Origin: an uncultured Thomasclavelia sp.
GTDB lineage: Bacteria > Bacillota_I > Bacilli_A > Erysipelotrichales > Coprobacillaceae
NCBI GenBank assembly: GCA_910588165.1
Contig: CAJUOR010000008.1
Coordinates: 1 to 42,291, forward strand
DNA: 42,291 nt
Direction: 5' to 3'
The translations under genes and the position numbers were made by a program. The notes below the pieces were generated by a model that worked only from the letters and a program-made list of their open reading frames with translations, searched no databases and had not been told where the DNA came from. Below, one piece after another: positions 10,153-40,809 of this stretch. How positions within the stretch are numbered: position 1 is the first letter of the stretch; each line of letters opens with the position of its first letter.

Positions 10153-11103
10153 ATGAACATAAAATCAAAGATGGCGACGCTATTAGCCTGTGCTTTAATG
10201 CTTGGGGCGTGTGCTTCAAATACATCAAGTGATAATACACTTGCAAGCGTCGACAATGACAAAAAAATCATTGCATCTGATGTCTACAATGATTTAATGA
10301 AGTCAAGCTCCGGTAAAACCGCTATTTACCAATACATCATTAAAGAAATCGTGATTAACAATCACCCTGCAACAGATGCCATGGCAACAGAAGCTGATTT
10401 AGCTATCGAACAAATTCAAAATCAATATACCTCATATTATGGTGCTCAAGCAGATGTTTACTTAAGCAACGCATTGTCACAATCCGGTTTTAAAAGCCTT
10501 GATGACTATCGTGAAACCATGATTTATTCATTTCAGCTTGAAGAATTTTTAAATGCCTATATCGAAAATCACTTTGATGAAGTATTTGAAGATTATTACA
10601 AGACAAAGACACCTCGTTATGTCAGCCATATCTTAGTCAAAATGGAAGATCCTGACAAACCGACCGAAGAAGAACAGAAAAGATTAAATGAAGTTCAAAA
10701 ATTGATTGATGACGGAGTCGATTTTGCTCAAATCGCCAAAGATTATTCTGATGACGGTTCAGCAAACACGGGGGGGCAATTAGGTATTTGTGATAAAGAT
10801 ACAAGCTTTGTCACTTCATTTAAAGAAGTTGCTTTAAAATTAAAAGAAGGCGAAATCAGTAAAGCCACTAAATCCGAATACGGCTACCACTTCATCACCG
10901 TAACTTCAACCAATAAAGAAGAGATGAAAAAAGATCCTCAAGTTACCGATGAATTACTGACTTCTTACGATGACTATATGCTCTACGTAGCTTTACAAAA
11001 CTATGAATTGACTTTTGAAAATCCTGATATTGAAAAAATCTTTACAACAGAATTAGAGAAAAGTCTAGCTAGCCGTGAAGCTAGTAGAAAGGAGGCTAAA
11101 TAA
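10153..11103 (+). CDS. prsA: PrsA-type lipoprotein, peptidyl-prolyl isomerase
   Basis: Encodes 316 aa. A lipoprotein signal peptide ends in LGAC, giving lipidated C20 on the outer face of the membrane. The N-terminal region is SurA/PrsA-like, followed by a parvulin (PPIC) domain at about residues 155-260 with SHILVKM, the mid-domain GGQLGI and YGYHFITV. Both parvulin histidines (in SHIL and GYHF) are present, so it should be catalytically active. PrsA proteins fold secreted proteins after Sec export. A strong promoter and ribosome site (AAGGAGG) precede it. A divergent second copy follows within 2 bp. Confidence 0.93.
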   Translation: MNIKSKMATLLACALMLGACASNTSSDNTLASVDNDKKIIASDVYNDLMKSSSGKTAIYQYIIKEIVINNHPATDAMATEADLAIEQIQNQYTSYYGAQADVYLSNALSQSGFKSLDDYRETMIYSFQLEEFLNAYIENHFDEVFEDYYKTKTPRYVSHILVKMEDPDKPTEEEQKRLNEVQKLIDDGVDFAQIAKDYSDDGSANTGGQLGICDKDTSFVTSFKEVALKLKEGEISKATKSEYGYHFITVTSTNKEEMKKDPQVTDELLTSYDDYMLYVALQNYELTFENPDIEKIFTTELEKSLASREASRKEAK

Positions 11104-11104
11104 T

Positions 11105-12001
11105 ATGAAGAAGCAAATCCTTTCAATCGCCTGCCTAGGACTACTAGCCGGTTGTACTAATACAGACAGTGCATACAGCACTCGGATTGAAAATGCCGAC
11201 AAAGTTGCAGTCAGCGGATCAAATATCAGCATTACCAATCAAGATATTTATGAAACCTTGATGGACTCCTATGGGGCAAACTATGTCCTCAATAAAGCAA
11301 TGCAGTTCATTGCTCAAGATTATGAAGTCGATGAAGAAGCATTAAAAAAAGAAGTAGAAACAACAATCAATTCCTACAAGACTTTCTACGGTGAAGATTT
11401 AGATAAATATGCCAAAGAAAATTTAGGATATGAATCATTTGAACAGTATCAACAAGAAATTTTAGTGCCTAGCCTTCGTCAACAACAAATGTTAAGAAGC
11501 TATGCCGATAAAAATTTCGATACACTATCAGCTCAATACCATTTCAAAAAATTACGTATGATTGTAGTGGAATCTGAATCAGAAGCAATTTCTTTGATTT
11601 CAAAATTAAGCAATGAAGAAATAACTTTTGAAAAAGCCTTTGAAGAACATACCGCCAACGGTTTAAATTCTTCCAATACTAAAGGTGAATTAGGCATCGT
11701 TTCAGATTTATCTAAAACATCATCTGTCGATCAAGCTATACTTACTGTTTTACCTCAGTTCAAAGTGAATGGCATTTACAGTGTCCCTATTAGTTTAGCT
11801 AGTGGAAAAGGCTATGCGGTAATAGATATTATGGAATCCGATGTCGCTAAAATGCAGTCGGAAGTTGCAACGATTTTGCGTGAATCAAATGATGTGATGG
11901 CAGAAGCGGAAATTTATTTCCTTAAAGAACATGGTCTGAAAATTTTTGATCCTGCCCTTGAAGCCAACATCAAAGCACTTAATCCCGACTATATTCAATA
12001 A
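11105..12001 (+). CDS. PrsA-like lipoprotein with degenerate parvulin domain
   Basis: Encodes 298 aa. The signal peptide ends LLAGC, so C17 is lipidated. Overall layout and N-terminal pattern (a TNQDIYETLM-like start, then ESFEQYQQEIL) match the preceding PrsA, so the pair probably arose by duplication. The parvulin region (about 150-255) keeps KGELGIVS, but SHILVK has become KLRMIVV and GYHFITV has become GYAVIDI, removing both catalytic histidines. It probably works as a chaperone without isomerase activity. AGGAGG lies 9 bases upstream of the ATG at 11105; a longer frame to 11075 would overlap the first gene. Confidence 0.8.
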   Translation: MKKQILSIACLGLLAGCTNTDSAYSTRIENADKVAVSGSNISITNQDIYETLMDSYGANYVLNKAMQFIAQDYEVDEEALKKEVETTINSYKTFYGEDLDKYAKENLGYESFEQYQQEILVPSLRQQQMLRSYADKNFDTLSAQYHFKKLRMIVVESESEAISLISKLSNEEITFEKAFEEHTANGLNSSNTKGELGIVSDLSKTSSVDQAILTVLPQFKVNGIYSVPISLASGKGYAVIDIMESDVAKMQSEVATILRESNDVMAEAEIYFLKEHGLKIFDPALEANIKALNPDYIQ

Positions 12002-12473: not shown

Positions 12474-12541
12474 ATTTACTTTAAAGTGATGTCTAATTTT
12501 AAATCACTTTCTAATAATAACATATTAAAACAAGCAGCATA

Positions 12542-12566
12542 AAAGGCTAGGTTTCCCCTAGCCTTT
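12542..12566 (-). terminator. Terminator of the glycolipid/yhaM operon
   Basis: A perfect 10-bp stem AAAGGCTAGG/CCTAGCCTTT with a 5-base loop, 15 bases after the yhaM stop on the minus strand. The T-run is short (CCTTTTATG) and the hairpin could act in both directions. A second inverted repeat, AAAGTGAT/ATCACTTT at 12483-12510, lies between it and the plus-strand terminator. Confidence 0.68.
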
Positions 12567-12581
12567 CATAACATTTCTATT

Positions 12582-13532
12582 CTATCTTTTAGGTTTATAA
12601 AAACTGCGATTCTCAAGTGCGAAAACACGTTTACTGAAATGTCCTTCTTCTACATTTTCCATCACTTTGCCAAGCATATTGATACGCGCATCTAAATTGT
12701 CAATCAAATGAATAACCTCAGCTTCGGCAATTTGCGGAAGTACCGGTGAGCCATACTCGAGCTTACCATGATGAGCAAGAACTAAATGTTTAAGGATTGT
12801 TACCTTCTCTCCGTTCAAATTAAGCTCAGAGGCTTTCTTTTCAATCAATGCCGAAGCAATAGAGATATGTCCTAGAAGTTTGCCCTCAAGAGTATATTCA
12901 GGCACAACAGGACCGCTTAGCTCAATTACTTTCCCTAAATCATGAAGTAAAATACCGCTGTATAGCCAATCGGTATTTAGTTCCTGATGAAGCGTACACA
13001 CAGCTTCCGCCATTTTTAACATACTTAAAGTATGATACGCTAAACCGGAAACATATTCATGATGATTACGACTAGCCGCCGGATAAACCATGAGCTGTTC
13101 AAGATATTGTTCATATAAAGCTTTGGTAATTGTATAAATCGTTTCATCTTTAATTAGCCCTATATATCGCAATAGGTTTTCTTGCATTTCTTCAATACGA
13201 TAAGGTGCTGATTTTAAATACTTGACTTGTTCGCTTTCCTCCTTTGAGAAAATAGCAATCTTTTCAATTTTTAATTGCAGTTCATCACCATATTTAATCA
13301 CATCACCGCTTACATCGACAACACAACCCACCTGCAAAGTATCAATCTGTTCCTGACTTGCAGACCATAGCTTACTAGTCAAAACACCGGTCTTATCTTG
13401 CAACATAATGGTTAGATAAGTTGTTTTATTGTTGCCGTTTGTTTTTCCTGTCGTCACATTATTGATGAGTGCTCTTAAAGTATATGATTCTCCGGCTTTG
13501 AGTGTACTAATCATTACTTCCAAAATCTTCAT
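12582..13532 (-). CDS. yhaM: 3'-5' exoribonuclease YhaM
   Basis: Encodes 316 aa. An N-terminal OB-fold (about residues 15-95, with TTYLTIMLQDKTG) is followed by an HD hydrolase domain with AYHTLSML, LLHDLGK and HLVLAHHGKLEYGSP. This order and length are those of YhaM/CBF1, a Mn/Co-dependent 3'-5' exonuclease for RNA and single-stranded DNA. The start at 13532 overlaps the end of the glycosyltransferase-RecX gene by 26 bp; GGAAG lies 6 bases upstream. A second ATG at 13514 would give a start nearer to B. subtilis YhaM and cannot be excluded. Confidence 0.9.
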   Translation of the reverse strand: MKILEVMISTLKAGESYTLRALINNVTTGKTNGNNKTTYLTIMLQDKTGVLTSKLWSASQEQIDTLQVGCVVDVSGDVIKYGDELQLKIEKIAIFSKEESEQVKYLKSAPYRIEEMQENLLRYIGLIKDETIYTITKALYEQYLEQLMVYPAASRNHHEYVSGLAYHTLSMLKMAEAVCTLHQELNTDWLYSGILLHDLGKVIELSGPVVPEYTLEGKLLGHISIASALIEKKASELNLNGEKVTILKHLVLAHHGKLEYGSPVLPQIAEAEVIHLIDNLDARINMLGKVMENVEEGHFSKRVFALENRSFYKPKR

Positions 13533-15504
13533 TCCCTTCTTCCGAAACTTCCTTAATCAAGTCATATTCAAAGCCCTTGCGACTTAAATAGACAAATATT
13601 TTATTTTGTAATTCTCTGCCTGTATATTTGGTGCTGTATTTCTTCTTCGCTTTCTCTAATTCTTTATGTAAAAGCTGTCTTTCAAACTGATCGTTCAATT
13701 CAAAAGGTACATCTGCCATAGCTTCCTCAATCACATCAGGCTCATAGCCATTATAGAAAAGCTTATCCCTAACGGCGTGTTTTAAAGCTACCTTTGAACG
13801 AGTTTTGTTGTTGCGGTAAATCTTACGTACCATTTCTTGTGCTGTTTCCACATCTATGGCACGTGAGTAATTAGCCTTAACAATCTCAATAACCTCGTCA
13901 GAAATACCTTTTTCTTTTAACTTCCTAATGGATTTACGAATCCCCATGCCCATGCGACTTGTCCGTTTGACATAATCTAGGGCAAAGTTTTCATCATCAA
14001 TCAGCTTTTTATCTTCCAATAAACTAATGATAATCTCAATGTATTGAGATTCATAATCACCCGTCTTTTCGAGCTTTTCAATCATTTGTTTTTTTGTATA
14101 ATCTCTTGTCGTTAAATACTTTAAAGCTTTTTTGTATCCTTTAACCACAAATTCATAGGTTTGCATATCTTTGAACGTATCTTGTTCGATTACTTGCCCG
14201 ATTTCTAATTGATGTGCCAAAACATACTTCTCAGGTAAATGCAAAGAAATGTGATGATTATCTAACTTTAAAACAACCTCGCACATTTCATTTGGACGAG
14301 CTGAAATGTTGTCGATTTTATAGCTGTAATGTTTATGCAAAATCGCCTTTTTATAGACATCATAAATTTTCTCATAAAAGACCTCACTGCTATATTGTTT
14401 TGAATCCGCATAAGCCTGCTGCTTCATTTGAGCTAAATTGGTAGCTAATAATTGCTTAACGCACGCCACTAAACTATCTAAATCCTCAAAAAAATAGCCA
14501 TTTGACTGATTTTGAATAATGCCATCTAAATTTTTGTCGTATCTAGCTAAAACCGGCAATCCGGCAGCCATCGCTTCTATATAAGTTAAACCTTGGGTTT
14601 CTGATGTTGAAGCCGAGATAAACGCATCACAAGCGTGATAGTAATAAGGAACTACCGTACCGTCTTTTGGACCGGCGAAGTAAACTTTATCCTCAACATC
14701 TAAATCCACAGCTAATGTTTTCAATTCATCAAGTCCCGGACCACCGCCGACAACGACCAATCTGATTTCAGGTACAGCATCTTTTAAATACGGTAAAGCT
14801 GAAATCACCATATCAATACTCTTTTCAGGTGCTACTCGCCCTAAAAAGATTAAAGTGAATGCCGAACTCTCATAAGTGCCACATTCCTTTTTAACTTCTG
14901 TTAGTTGCTGTTCATTTAGATTACTAGCCTCAAAGCGTTCTAGCTCTAAGCCCGTCGGAATGACATGAATGTCATTTTCGATACCGTAAGTTTCCAAAAT
15001 TTCTTTCGTTTTAACTGAAGGCGCCACTAACTCAGTGCAGTTATCACCATAAATGCGACTAATCCAAGACACACCTTTCTTCAATAAAGGCTGCATAGGC
15101 TCAATTTTTCCGATGACAGGTGCGTAATGAACATAGTCTTCATATTGGGTATGATAGGTATAAACAACCGGTATATTTAAAAGATGGGCTACAATCTTAC
15201 CAAAAATACCAATACTGAATTCTGTCTGAACATGAATAACATCTAAATCCATCGCCTTAATTTTAGCCATCGCTTTAAGCGAAAAAAAACTAGATAAACG
15301 ATAGTCGTAAAGATTTTTTAATTCAATGCCCGATAAACGATAAACATTATCATCATCAATATATTCTGTTCCTTTTTTAATTTCTGTCGTAACCACCAAA
15401 ACATCATGTCCATGTTTAACAAGTTCATTTCTTAAAATATGACTTGATGAGGCTACGCCGTTAATATCAGGTAAATAAGTATCTGTAAAAATCCCAATCC
15501 GCAT
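13507..15504 (-). CDS. GT4 diacylglycerol glucosyltransferase-like protein fused to RecX
   Basis: Encodes 665 aa in one uninterrupted frame. Residues 1 to about 388 are a GT4 (GT-B) glycosyltransferase: FTDTYLPDINGV at the N-terminus, HVQTEFSIG and YHTQYEDYVHY as in 1,2-diacylglycerol 3-glucosyltransferases, and the catalytic E-x7-E at E302/E310 (SETQGLTYIE). Residues about 393-655 are a full RecX: an N-terminal beta segment, ALKYLTTRDYTKKQMIEKL, LIDDENFALDYV, LKEKGISDEVIE and the terminal KIFVYLSRKGFEYDLIKEV. RecX normally binds RecA filaments in the cytosol, and GT4 enzymes of this type work at the inner membrane face, so the join is unexpected. AAAGGAGA precedes the ATG. It lies 2 bp after the flippase-like gene. 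The GT family call is firm, the exact acceptor less so. Confidence 0.88.
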   Translation of the reverse strand: MRIGIFTDTYLPDINGVASSSHILRNELVKHGHDVLVVTTEIKKGTEYIDDDNVYRLSGIELKNLYDYRLSSFFSLKAMAKIKAMDLDVIHVQTEFSIGIFGKIVAHLLNIPVVYTYHTQYEDYVHYAPVIGKIEPMQPLLKKGVSWISRIYGDNCTELVAPSVKTKEILETYGIENDIHVIPTGLELERFEASNLNEQQLTEVKKECGTYESSAFTLIFLGRVAPEKSIDMVISALPYLKDAVPEIRLVVVGGGPGLDELKTLAVDLDVEDKVYFAGPKDGTVVPYYYHACDAFISASTSETQGLTYIEAMAAGLPVLARYDKNLDGIIQNQSNGYFFEDLDSLVACVKQLLATNLAQMKQQAYADSKQYSSEVFYEKIYDVYKKAILHKHYSYKIDNISARPNEMCEVVLKLDNHHISLHLPEKYVLAHQLEIGQVIEQDTFKDMQTYEFVVKGYKKALKYLTTRDYTKKQMIEKLEKTGDYESQYIEIIISLLEDKKLIDDENFALDYVKRTSRMGMGIRKSIRKLKEKGISDEVIEIVKANYSRAIDVETAQEMVRKIYRNNKTRSKVALKHAVRDKLFYNGYEPDVIEEAMADVPFELNDQFERQLLHKELEKAKKKYSTKYTGRELQNKIFVYLSRKGFEYDLIKEVSEEGNEDFGSND

Positions 15505-15506
15505 AC

Positions 15507-16544
15507 CTAATCTCCTTTCTTTTGCCTTCCGTTAATCTCTTTATTAAAAGCAAATACCAATGCACCAATAATCAAAACCAGATAATAAGTCGCAAAACGC
15601 CATATCAACATACTAGAAGACGATAAAATATTCCCCATTAAATAACTGAACAATAAGGCATAAGTCCCTTCACTTCCCCCACTTGCCCCAGGCACCGGGA
15701 TAAAAGCTGTAATCATATAGACAAATGCACAAATACCGATATAATCAAAATATTGATGAAAAGGCAAATGTTGACCTAAGGCAAGCATCGTCAAAAATGG
15801 AATGCTGTATTGAACGGTCAATTTAATAAAGATGCATAATGACGATTTAATAATCGCTGCTTTATGATGCTTCATCACATATAATTCTTGGCGGAAATCA
15901 TCAAGTTTTTGATCCAATGAAATCTTGGCAATATCATAATTTTTAACTAAATGCAAATGATGCCCAATTTTTAAAACCGTTCCGGTTAAAAATGTTTGAA
16001 AAGAGCTTGAAATCGCACCAATCAAAAGCATGGTAATCACTAAGGCATTAACCGCAAAGCCAACCAAAGCTAAAGAGGCAAAGCCGGAAAATTCATTAAA
16101 AAACTGATTAAACTTAAACAACAAAATCAATAGCGTATACCCAACCATTGATATTTGGTAAATAATAAAGTACATTAAAAGAATGCCAAAGGCATTGGTC
16201 GTTGAAACACCTTGTTTTTTAAAGACATAGATTTGGGCAAACTGTCCGCCACTTGAAAAAGGCGTAATCCCACAAAAAAAGCCGCCGACCAAACCATTAA
16301 CAACACCTTGTTTTAAACTGTAATCCTTACAGTATATGTTTGCGAATATTTTCAATACTAGTCCCTCAAAAATGAACGGTATCAAGGCAATCACAATAAT
16401 AATGGCCACCCAAAAATAATTGATATGACTTAATACCTCCAAAATCGAATAGAATTCTTTACGCAGTGTAAAAAATAAAGCAATCGCCGTAAATAAGATA
16501 ATCCATAATAAATTTAATGCATATTTTTTAAATGCCTTACTCAT
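15507..16544 (-). CDS. Flippase-like UPF0104/LPG-synthase-TM membrane protein
   Basis: Encodes 345 aa with about eight membrane segments. Family marks are LVGGFFCGITPFSSGGQ (near residue 90) and FIPVPGASGGSEG (near residue 283), as in the membrane domain of MprF and the stand-alone UPF0104 (YbhN-type) proteins. It has no lysyl-transferase domain, so it should not be read as a lysyl-phosphatidylglycerol synthase. Family membership and placement between two lipid-type GT4 genes suggest it moves glycolipid across the membrane; that is inference. AAGGAGAG lies about 6 bases before the ATG, and gaps to its neighbours are 2-3 bp. Confidence 0.85.
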   Translation of the reverse strand: MSKAFKKYALNLLWIILFTAIALFFTLRKEFYSILEVLSHINYFWVAIIIVIALIPFIFEGLVLKIFANIYCKDYSLKQGVVNGLVGGFFCGITPFSSGGQFAQIYVFKKQGVSTTNAFGILLMYFIIYQISMVGYTLLILLFKFNQFFNEFSGFASLALVGFAVNALVITMLLIGAISSSFQTFLTGTVLKIGHHLHLVKNYDIAKISLDQKLDDFRQELYVMKHHKAAIIKSSLCIFIKLTVQYSIPFLTMLALGQHLPFHQYFDYIGICAFVYMITAFIPVPGASGGSEGTYALLFSYLMGNILSSSSMLIWRFATYYLVLIIGALVFAFNKEINGRQKKGD

Positions 16545-16547
16545 AGA

Positions 16548-17561
16548 TTAACTCTCCTTTTTTGATAATGCCAATGTATAGACACTTTGCAGTTGCTCTC
16601 CAATCGCTTTAAAGCCTCTTGAAAGAGCGGTCTTATAACCTGCTTCTTTTAAATCAGGTAATTGATTGTGTAACATCAATTCTAGAATTTGCACGAAGTC
16701 CTTTGTATCATTGCCTTTATAACAATTTTCCTTATCCGTCAACCAACCGTCATACACGCCGATATCTCTAACTAAAACCGGACATTTAGCCGCCAAGGCT
16801 TCTAGTACAACAATCCCTTCTGTTTCCTCTCGTGAAGGGAAAAAGAAGATATCACAGCCTAAATAAGCACCTGTAATAACATCTCCGGAAATATAACCCG
16901 GAAGAATCAGATTATCCGGTTTATTTTCAATCCAATGTCTAATCGTTGCCGTTGGCATAGATAAATTTTTATCGCCAAACCAAATAAATTTATAATCAGG
17001 CATTTGACTTGCTACCTCGCAAAATGTATCGAATCCCTTGCGTTCAAATAACCAGCCTACTGAAATAATCACTTTATCTTCACTTTTCAAAGAAAAATAA
17101 TCTCTGAAAGCTTGTATCTTCTTTTCATCATAAGCAAAACGCTCAACATCTATACCATTTGAAATAGCAAAAATCGGCTGTTTTAAACCATAGCTTTCCA
17201 ATAATGATTTAGAATATGCTGTCGGCGTTACAATACAATCACCATAACCATACATTTTCATTAACCAACGACGATAAAACGGAATCAATAAATTTGAGAA
17301 AGCAAATGAATTTCTGAAATCCTCCACCGTACTATGAGCATGATATACGATGGACTTTCCTTTTCTTTTTGCTTTTTTGACTTCTAAATAGCTTGCCAGC
17401 CAAACTGTATTCACATGAAGAACATCGAAATGCTTACAGCGATGATCTGTTGTATAATCTATATTATTCAATGTTAATGCTTTTTTTTGATGTTGAAGGG
17501 CTTTACCAATACCTGATTTCGCAATGGCTTTTTCATTTTCAAAATAAAGTTTAATTTTCAT
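16548..17561 (-). CDS. GT4 glycosyltransferase, likely second glycolipid step
   Basis: Encodes 337 aa. It has the GT-B layout of GT4 enzymes: an N-terminal acceptor domain with FDVLHVNTVW and YHAHSTVEDFRNS, a linker ISNGIDVERF, then a nucleotide-sugar domain with SVGWLFERKGFDTF and an E-x7-E motif in REETEGIVVLEALA. It resembles the enzyme that adds the second sugar to monoglucosyl-diacylglycerol, for example CpoA-type and related synthases, usually encoded beside the first enzyme. The sugar and linkage cannot be read from sequence. The ATG at 17561 has AAGGG 8 bases upstream; GTG 17570 and ATG 17567 are alternatives within the same site. First gene of the operon. Confidence 0.85.
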   Translation of the reverse strand: MKIKLYFENEKAIAKSGIGKALQHQKKALTLNNIDYTTDHRCKHFDVLHVNTVWLASYLEVKKAKRKGKSIVYHAHSTVEDFRNSFAFSNLLIPFYRRWLMKMYGYGDCIVTPTAYSKSLLESYGLKQPIFAISNGIDVERFAYDEKKIQAFRDYFSLKSEDKVIISVGWLFERKGFDTFCEVASQMPDYKFIWFGDKNLSMPTATIRHWIENKPDNLILPGYISGDVITGAYLGCDIFFFPSREETEGIVVLEALAAKCPVLVRDIGVYDGWLTDKENCYKGNDTKDFVQILELMLHNQLPDLKEAGYKTALSRGFKAIGEQLQSVYTLALSKKES

Positions 17562-17640
17562 TTCCATCACCCTTTTTTATCATACAACAAATTGCGCTTT
17601 TTTAAAAGGAAAATAACCCTTTTAAGGAAAAAATAAGATA

Positions 17641-17674
17641 GAAAAAACGGTACAGTTTTTCAACTATACCGTTT
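17641..17674 (-). terminator. Terminator of nifJ
   Basis: A 13-bp stem with one wobble pair (AAACGGTATAGTT with AACTGTACCGTTT) and a GAAA loop, followed by TTTTTTC on the minus strand, just after the nifJ stop. Confidence 0.88.
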
Positions 17675-31166: not shown

Positions 31167-31556
31167 TTAGTGGTGATGTCCACAACCACATTCATGGTCT
31201 TCGTCATGGTGATGTCCACAACCGCATCCATGGTCTTCATCGTGATGATGTCCACAACCGCATTCATGGTCTTCATCGTGATGATGTCCACAACCGCAAG
31301 TTTCACCTTCACAAGTTTCTTCATCATTACTCATGAAGCTTTCAAATACATCATTGATCATATCCCATTCTTCCGCACTGTCAACATCAAACAAATGCCC
31401 TTCATCATCATAAACAGATGCGAAAACATTTGGTTCTGCCTCATCGGCATCATAATATAAGACATATGACTTACCATTATTTTCAAAAGTGAAAAGAATT
31501 GTATATTCTTTATCTTCACCTTGATCATTTGTCACAACAATTACATCTGAATCCAT
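31167..31556 (-). CDS. DUF1292 (YrzB-like) protein with His/Cys-rich repeat tail
   Basis: Encodes 129 aa. Residues 1 to about 80 are a DUF1292 domain (VTNDQGEDKEYTILFTF, YVLYYDADE, DEEWDMI-like end), as in B. subtilis YrzB at the same position in the gene order. Residues about 82-129 are an added tail made of a 12-residue unit, CGCGHHHDEDHE, repeated about three and a half times, ending HHH. Such a tail should bind transition metals (Ni, Zn, Cu or Co). The core is of unknown function. It is 14 bp after ruvX and followed by a terminator. Confidence 0.88.
   Translation of the reverse strand: MDSDVIVVTNDQGEDKEYTILFTFENNGKSYVLYYDADEAEPNVFASVYDDEGHLFDVDSAEEWDMINDVFESFMSNDEETCEGETCGCGHHHDEDHECGCGHHHDEDHGCGCGHHHDEDHECGCGHHH
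31170..31298 (-). repeat. 36-bp coding tandem repeat, about 3.6 copies
   Basis: Units at 31170-31205, 31206-31241, 31242-31277 and a partial at 31278-31298, differing at a few positions. Unit length is a multiple of three, so copy-number change would keep the frame and only lengthen or shorten the His/Cys tail. Confidence 0.9.
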
Positions 31557-39889: not shown

Positions 39890-40809
39890 TATTTCAATCT
39901 GGACATTGGAAGCATAGCCGCACCAATCGCACCGCAATCTTCTAATTTCGCAGGTAAGAATTTTATGTGTCCTCGCATTCCAACGTGTACTTTGGCATTA
40001 AATTGTTCAATTAAGCGTTCAAAGAAATACTCTTTAGATTTCATAACACCGCCGCCTAATATAAAAGCATACGGATCAACTGTATGAGCAATATTGGCAA
40101 ACATATTAGACAACATAGCAATTGTGTCATCAACAATACTTTGAGCCTTCAAATCACCATTCGCAGCTAATTCAAAGACATTTCCGGCATGTTTAACAAC
40201 ATCTTCACCTAAAATTTCTTTACCTTTTCGTGTAATAGCTGTTCCGCTTGCCTCTCCTTCAGCTGCCCCCGGATTTAAACCACCGAATTTATAACCATTA
40301 TTTTTAACGATGATATTACCGATTTCCCCGGCATGTCCACGTCCGCCGGAAACCAATTTACCATCTACAATTAAAGCACCACCAATACCGGTAGAAATAG
40401 TCACATAATAAACAATCGGTAAACCTTTACCTGCCCCTAACAAAGCTTCTGCCAAGCCGGCAACATTAGCATCATTATCAATAAATGTAGGTAAGTTAAA
40501 GCGATTGGCTAATTTCTGACAAATCGGATAATTTTCAAATCCGGGTAAATTAGTTGCCATAATCATGACACCTCTAACCGTATCAACTGGTCCCGGTACA
40601 CCAATACCGATACCTTCAACTCCACTTATACCACCACATACACTGTAATCTAAGGATTCGATCTGTCTGATGATTTTAGCACAAACATAATCAGGACCTT
40701 TTTCACGTTCTGTGACATCTTTGACTTCACTATATGAGTTACCTTCTTCGTCCACTAACAGTGTACGAACATTTGTTCCTCCCAAGTCAATCCCAATATA
40801 ATATTTCAT
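39889..40809 (-). CDS. ROK-family glucokinase, atypical zinc motif
   Basis: Encodes 306 aa. Phosphate-1 motif IGIDLGGTNVR is at the N-terminus, GIGVPGPVD follows, the catalytic aspartate is in FIDNDANVAGLAEAL, and ISTGIGGALIVDGKLVSGGRGHAGEIGN contains the ROK histidine and glutamate (quoted in part). The usual zinc motif CxCGxxGCxE is replaced by GYKFGGLNPGAAEGEAS, with no cysteines. Glucose is the probable substrate; other hexoses are possible. The start at 40809 is chosen because GAGGAGG lies 9 bases upstream; the ATG at 40827 is part of that site. Confidence 0.87.
   Translation of the reverse strand: MKYYIGIDLGGTNVRTLLVDEEGNSYSEVKDVTEREKGPDYVCAKIIRQIESLDYSVCGGISGVEGIGIGVPGPVDTVRGVMIMATNLPGFENYPICQKLANRFNLPTFIDNDANVAGLAEALLGAGKGLPIVYYVTISTGIGGALIVDGKLVSGGRGHAGEIGNIIVKNNGYKFGGLNPGAAEGEASGTAITRKGKEILGEDVVKHAGNVFELAANGDLKAQSIVDDTIAMLSNMFANIAHTVDPYAFILGGGVMKSKEYFFERLIEQFNAKVHVGMRGHIKFLPAKLEDCGAIGAAMLPMSRLK

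Follow-up and report, generated by a model that had tools for sequence, protein, structure and literature searches.

Within a stretch of 42,291 nucleotides from an uncultured Thomasclavelia sp. (contig CAJUOR010000008.1; the whole stretch is called the window here), a single open reading frame (ORF) of 665 amino acids (aa) at 13507..15504 on the minus strand encodes a GT4-family glycosyltransferase (GT) most like monoglucosyl-diacylglycerol synthase (Mgs), followed by a complete RecX. The fusion is conserved across a bacterial order, which rules out an accident in a single genome. RecX is otherwise familiar as a small RecA regulator that exists as a free protein; in about four fifths of the genomes sampled from this order, its frame forms the C-terminal part of a lipid enzyme gene. 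The product is probably a two-job protein, born of one ancient fusion of overlapping operon genes, with each half at its ordinary job.

The fused frame and its two halves

The frame, which is supported by the ORF, by profiles and by a predicted model, opens with an ATG at 15504 behind a clear ribosome site (GAAAGGAG) and runs to 13507 with no internal stop codon. Domain profiles and the model delimit a GT4 half (residues 1-391, 14332..15504) and a RecX half with N-terminal beta strands and four three-helix units (residues 394-658, 13531..14325). The junction, residues 392-393 (14326..14331, minus strand like both halves), leads from the C-terminal helix of the GT into the first RecX strand. 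Pfam analysis revealed Glyco_transf_4 (residues 14-190) and Glycos_transf_1 (216-363) in the GT half, and RecX_HTH1 (457-490, 51.9 bits), RecX_HTH2 (503-540, 26.5 bits) and RecX_HTH3 (610-653, 50.1 bits) in the RecX half; the three RecX domains are above the gathering score of 26.

The NCBIfam profile NF049988 (monoglucosyldiacylglycerol synthase) matches residues 1-391 over its positions 1-391 of 398 with 245.2 bits, and the RecX profile PRK14135 matches residues 410-654 over its positions 17-260 of 267 with 152.7 bits. The respective cut-offs, 400 and 240 bits (the latter an equivalog cut-off), are naming thresholds; since both are missed, the GT half is termed Mgs-like and the RecX half a RecX homologue rather than a PRK14135 equivalog. 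The PRK14135 cut-off is reached in none of the 244 genomes of the order that were sampled, standalone RecX included.

The predicted model has a mean pLDDT (predicted local distance difference test score) of 84.2, with block values of 76-93 over residues 391-650. The GT ends with a helix at 373-390 and RecX opens with a strand at 394-403, after which the rest of the N-terminal beta segment and the repeated three-helix units follow in sequence order. The rows of a fold search, which cover residues 1-391 only, gave GT-B fold neighbours for the GT half, and the sequence profile of the RecX half matches the solved RecX structures 3e3v and 3d5l. The initial annotation had described a GT4 enzyme running into a full RecX from the sequence, and Pfam, NCBIfam and the predicted model, with its RecX strands and three-helix units from residue 394 onward, all bear this out.

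Conservation within each half was followed in an alignment of 61 fused rows, namely 60 loci and the window (60 distinct rows, two being identical), from which 10 duplicate or contig-cut fused loci had been omitted. E302 and E310 of the GT half, in E-x7-E spacing, are kept in all 61 rows; E-x7-E is a motif of retaining GT4 enzymes. The predicted activity of the GT half is the formation of monoglucosyl-diacylglycerol from UDP-glucose and diacylglycerol, and the RecX half is likely to act on RecA. Median ratios of non-synonymous to synonymous substitution (dN/dS) of 0.072 for the GT half and 0.067 for the RecX half, from 30 close pairs that all belong to the window's own clade, show strong purifying selection on each half among close relatives. 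The RecX half diverges faster, with a median pairwise identity of 25% vs 44% for the GT half.

Distribution and origin of the fusion

The sample of the order comprised 244 genomes. It is the order to which the nearest relative, G003 (59% identity), belongs, and is taken to be Erysipelotrichales from two records with names, L001 and L002, and from the homologue names given below. A RecX match lies in a frame of at least 620 aa in 195 of these genomes; the whole-protein match was seen for part of them, and the rest are counted from frame length and the place of RecX. Fused frames cut by a contig end were found in 6 further genomes, RecX frames of at most 308 aa in 31, and no RecX match in 9. In the remaining three (G070, G092 and G227) the part before RecX is interrupted, degenerate or unrelated. 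In G227 (L173:8000-9277) the GT is replaced by an unrelated, repeated N-terminal sequence of about 160 residues, after which RecX follows; in G070 (L166:6946-8825) the interrupted GT part leaves two ORFs of 181 and 429 aa, with RecX in the second.

A homologue search with several data sources gave the same architecture. Among 5529 homologues found, the 120 listed are 654-668 aa long and carry both domain sets without exception, which rules out a sequencing error in the frame; those with names include Beduini, Coprobacillus, Thomasclavelia and [Clostridium] saccharogumia. Public records call such proteins either 'glycosyltransferase' or 'RecX family transcriptional regulator', and each name hides half of the protein, an annotation corrected here. 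The earlier alternative of a tolerated accident, taken as an event in one genome, is not upheld, as the fusion is conserved across the order and both halves are constrained where tested.

The fused RecX is mostly the only one. A single RecX match was found in 231 of the 235 RecX-bearing genomes and two matches in four, where the extra RecX is weak in G069 and G219 and strong and standalone in G193, G027 being the fourth. The second RecX of G193 (L151:3818-4564) lies on a contig of 4769 bases beside a fused gene elsewhere in that genome, and may be contamination. A second recX was searched for in the nearest genome, G003, and none was found; its one RecX is in the fused frame. RecA was detected in 235 of the 244 genomes, G003 included, and exceeds the curated cut-off in 231.

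Beyond the order, class (296 genomes) and phylum (392 genomes) samples were searched, with the matches sorted best first; the full-length matches among those listed are all in genomes of the order sample. A 637-aa frame in G494, outside the order, was considered as a possible fusion and rejected, as it holds a GT frame of 384 aa with no RecX after it. In a species-level contig collection, 3 of the 80 loci kept match past residue 446, and these are named as or close to Erysipelotrichia; the remaining loci, mostly streptococci, match the GT part. None of 26 matching phage records covers more than 80% of the query, the five listed matching the GT half only, and plasmids gave no near match to the fusion. 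In the samples searched the fusion is so far confined to this order. No description of it was found among the matches listed in a search limited to open-licence PMC papers, and the excerpts seen of PMC8865564 and PMC11676981 contain nothing that bears on it; both domain families are already known.

The gene order of the outgroup suggests how the fusion came about. In 10 of the 12 outgroup mgs loci (L084-L087, L089 and L158-L162) the order is flippase-mgs-recX-yhaM, and the recX ORF opens inside mgs, with an overlap of 23-92 bases when the longest ORFs are taken. Six of these loci (L084, L086, L158 and L160-L162) were read base by base; recX is in the +1 frame relative to mgs in all six, and in five a start codon preceded by AGGA, GAGG or GGAGG is found 22 or 28 bases short of the mgs end. 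Because outgroup mgs and recX overlap in different frames, a small shift of frame within the overlap is the likely origin of the fusion. Of the 61 fused rows, 59 have a junction stretch (residues 384-410) of 26-27 residues, a near-constant length which fits one origin.

Later splits were placed with a tree of RecX and YhaM of 108 rows, from which 9 duplicate or partial loci and L104 (no usable YhaM) had been omitted, and with a second tree of 63 chosen rows under a mixture model. L134, L136 and L139, in which mgs and recX are separate, and L142, in which a contig end truncates mgs, are nested in fused rows with 98-100% support; in L139 the two genes overlap by 4 bases. When the split rows were held with the outgroup in an approximately unbiased (AU) test, the cost was 185 log units (p 1e-56). 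The constraint joined the four split rows to seven outgroup rows which do not by themselves form one side of any branch in the free tree. The AU p-value thus overstates the case, as the test also forces the outgroup into one group and the constrained set was chosen once the tree was known; the support of 98-100 is the better guide.

Loss of the enzyme is also recorded inside the fused rows. It is gone from L135 and L167, both nested in fused rows, the latter keeping, ahead of RecX, a degenerate remnant some 120 residues long (by eye), and ten enzyme-less rows form a group sister to four fused rows in the 108-row tree. In all 31 standalone-RecX loci yhaM adjoins recX; mgs stands alongside in 8 and not in 23. 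In seven loci (L132, L137, L138, L140, L141, L143 and L146) the enzyme is gone and recX-yhaM lies just downstream of a PFOR gene, the remaining order being kept. As some inner lineages have re-split the genes and others have retained RecX without the GT, the GT-RecX link is dispensable. The probable history is a single origin, with fissions and losses of the GT afterwards, in preference to several fusions.

Proposed role and its alternatives

How a two-job protein would work can be outlined. The GT half, via an amphipathic helix rich in Lys and Arg, would hold the protein at the membrane; the candidate helix, near residues 134-152, is conserved and has a moment of 0.55. The Acholeplasma and Mycoplasma enzymes are described as bound at the cytosolic side of the membrane, and the Acholeplasma MGS as controlling membrane charge density, in excerpts from PMC6506492. 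RecX would be placed at the membrane's cytoplasmic face, one copy per enzyme molecule, and would meet RecA near the membrane; storage structures and bundles of E. coli RecA are described as associated with the inner membrane and anionic phospholipids in excerpts from PMC6363387. RecX is thus predicted to be probably held at the membrane, and the membrane association foreseen by the initial annotation stands as a fair prediction. What probably preserves the link is that the cell needs both halves and that a split would take a new stop and a new start, and not a need of either half for the other. Its loss in several lineages argues that membrane placement is not essential.

Several observations weigh against this reading, or against parts of it. 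The old gene order is not universal: L163 (G282) and L164 (G260), the other two of the 12 outgroup mgs loci, have no adjoining recX or yhaM, L165 (G018), a second mgs-like gene of a fused genome, has neither, and the distant standalone recX loci L152 and L153 have no adjoining yhaM or mgs. Deep branches of the trees are weak, so the separate genes of L176, L177, L178 and L187, inside the order, may keep the old state, in which case these could be ancestral and some fusions independent. Stop codons are reported inside the match of G207 and G094, two of the 195 genomes, and the strong second RecX of G193 has been noted above; the window's own genome may also hold a second recX. The GT half has a net charge of -16 (the A. 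laidlawii enzyme is reportedly strongly basic) and its stretch 72-90 is not amphipathic, so membrane binding may be weaker than assumed. Median RecX charges are -4 and 0.5 for fused proteins, +12 for the outgroup and +5 for RecX without a GT. This lower basicity of fused RecX is an overall trend, mixed in sister-group comparisons, and could reflect an altered function.

The most serious rival holds that the link itself is functional, a membrane-held RecX confining or tuning the turnover of RecA filaments, or lipid status controlling recombination. It agrees with the fused frame in most of the order and the near-constant junction length, and with what the excerpts of PMC6363387 and PMC6506492 tell of RecA at anionic phospholipids and of MGS and charge density. 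However, nested lineages have split the genes or dropped the GT with RecX kept, operon adjacency accounts for the choice of partner without any functional tie, and RecX-YFP of B. subtilis is seen as foci on the nucleoid, in competent cells also at the poles (PMC3527212). Lipid synthesis and RecA control may be functionally tied, and as an explanation of the fusion we consider such a tie unlikely. The strongest wording of the idea, that the only RecX of a whole order is anchored at the membrane, where RecA filaments would be dismantled so that recombination or SOS output follows the lipid state, is doubtful. Natural controls are at hand in relatives whose genes are separate or have been split again and in those that retain RecX without the enzyme; whether the membrane tie of RecX changes RecA control is therefore directly testable.

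A quite improbable alternative is that the RecX half has given up RecA control and now serves the GT as a tail for nucleic-acid binding or scaffolding. The faster divergence of the RecX halves, their lower basicity in many fused proteins and the score of the window's RecX below the naming cut-off would suit such a change. Against it, the standalone RecX of the order falls below the same cut-off, RecX dN/dS is as low as that of the GT half in the pairs tested, and this RecX is the sole one in nearly all these genomes, which have RecA, and survives the loss of the GT.

Release of a free RecX, by proteolysis at the junction or from an internal start, is very improbable. The best internal start candidate near the junction is a weak one, TTG389 after AAAAAGG, with AAGG 5 bases upstream, and some in-frame ATG, GTG or TTG occurs in the stretch of residues 385-412 in 44 of the 61 fused rows. 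Within that stretch, however, an ATG with a 4-base Shine-Dalgarno match is found in none of the 61 rows and any start codon with such a match in 3, and in the model the GT helix and the opening strand of RecX are some three residues apart, with no loose linker. Promoter-like matches, 30 vs 33.3 in shuffled sequences, show no excess that would point to an internal promoter for recX. The uninterrupted junction described by the initial annotation is confirmed, TTG389 being the best start candidate near it, and a single protein of about 75 kDa is predicted in the cell. That a sequencing or assembly artefact, such as a frameshift, joins two genes has a negligible chance and was ruled out, since the fused frame recurs in 195 of the order's 244 genomes and in all 120 homologues listed.

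Gene neighbourhood and known systems

The fusion is the third gene of a four-gene run on the minus strand, in the order IagA/BgsA-family glycolipid-anchor glycosyltransferase (16548..17570; 484 bits, cut-off 460), flippase-like membrane protein (15507..16544; LPG_synthase_TM, TIGR00374), fusion and YhaM-like 3'-5' exoribonuclease with OB and HD domains (12582..13532; 363.9 bits, below its cut-off of 460). The genes are spaced by 3 bases and 2 bases, and the fusion overlaps yhaM, its conserved downstream neighbour, by 26 bases. As the first gene exceeds its curated family cut-off, the setting of the run is likely to be glycolipid-anchor synthesis. Terminator-like hairpins lie on the minus strand after yhaM (12538..12570) and between a PFOR gene and the four-gene unit (17645..17674); they come from a consensus scan only, which gave 8 terminator-like matches in the region vs 5.1 expected.

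The initial annotation had also proposed that the fusion ties SOS control to envelope synthesis. This is not supported, since the genes are operon neighbours in most outgroup loci and were later split or lost the GT, and since SOS-box-like sites in the window are no commoner than chance. With an SOS-box motif, 9 one-mismatch matches were found in the window vs 12.2 expected, and the sole perfect match of the window is at 40767, far from the operon; SOS control of the operon was rejected on this count.

Elsewhere in the window, a small protein at 31167-31556 (minus strand) repeats a CGCGHHHDEDH-like, possibly metal-binding motif in its C-terminus. Two overlapping, tandem lipoprotein-like ORFs lie at 10153-12001 (plus strand), the first resembling a PrsA-type foldase by eye.

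Distant Mgs-like GT4 enzymes joined to a second domain were also observed in three other loci. An N-terminal, sub-threshold and weak alpha/beta hydrolase match precedes the GT in L154:7246-9207 (G491), and an N-terminal zinc-dependent phospholipase C domain in L156:3083-4774 (G272) and L157:7040-8719 (G331). A lipase that frees diacylglycerol beside an enzyme able to use it makes a sensible pair. These proteins resemble the fusion in joining such a GT4 to another domain and differ in that their partner is hydrolase-like or a phospholipase C, is N-terminal and is not RecX.

Among known systems, Mgs (NF049988, GT4) resembles the fusion in the near full-length profile match, the GT-B fold neighbours and a glycolipid setting, given here by the IagA/BgsA-family GT and the flippase-like protein; it differs in that the fusion carries a C-terminal RecX, has a net negative charge and scores 245 bits vs a cut-off of 400. 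Firmicute RecX (PRK14135; 3d5l and 3e3v; B. subtilis RecX/YfhG) shares the N-terminal beta strands, the three-helix repeats, the full length and the mostly single copy in RecA-bearing genomes, whereas the fused RecX has no start of its own, stands behind a glycosyltransferase, scores 153 bits vs 240 and adjoins yhaM. A further counterpart is the set of separate, overlapping mgs, recX and yhaM in other genomes of the class, with the same genes, order and direction in 10 of the 12 outgroup mgs loci (all but L163 and L164), where mgs and recX occupy two frames and the recX ORF begins inside mgs.
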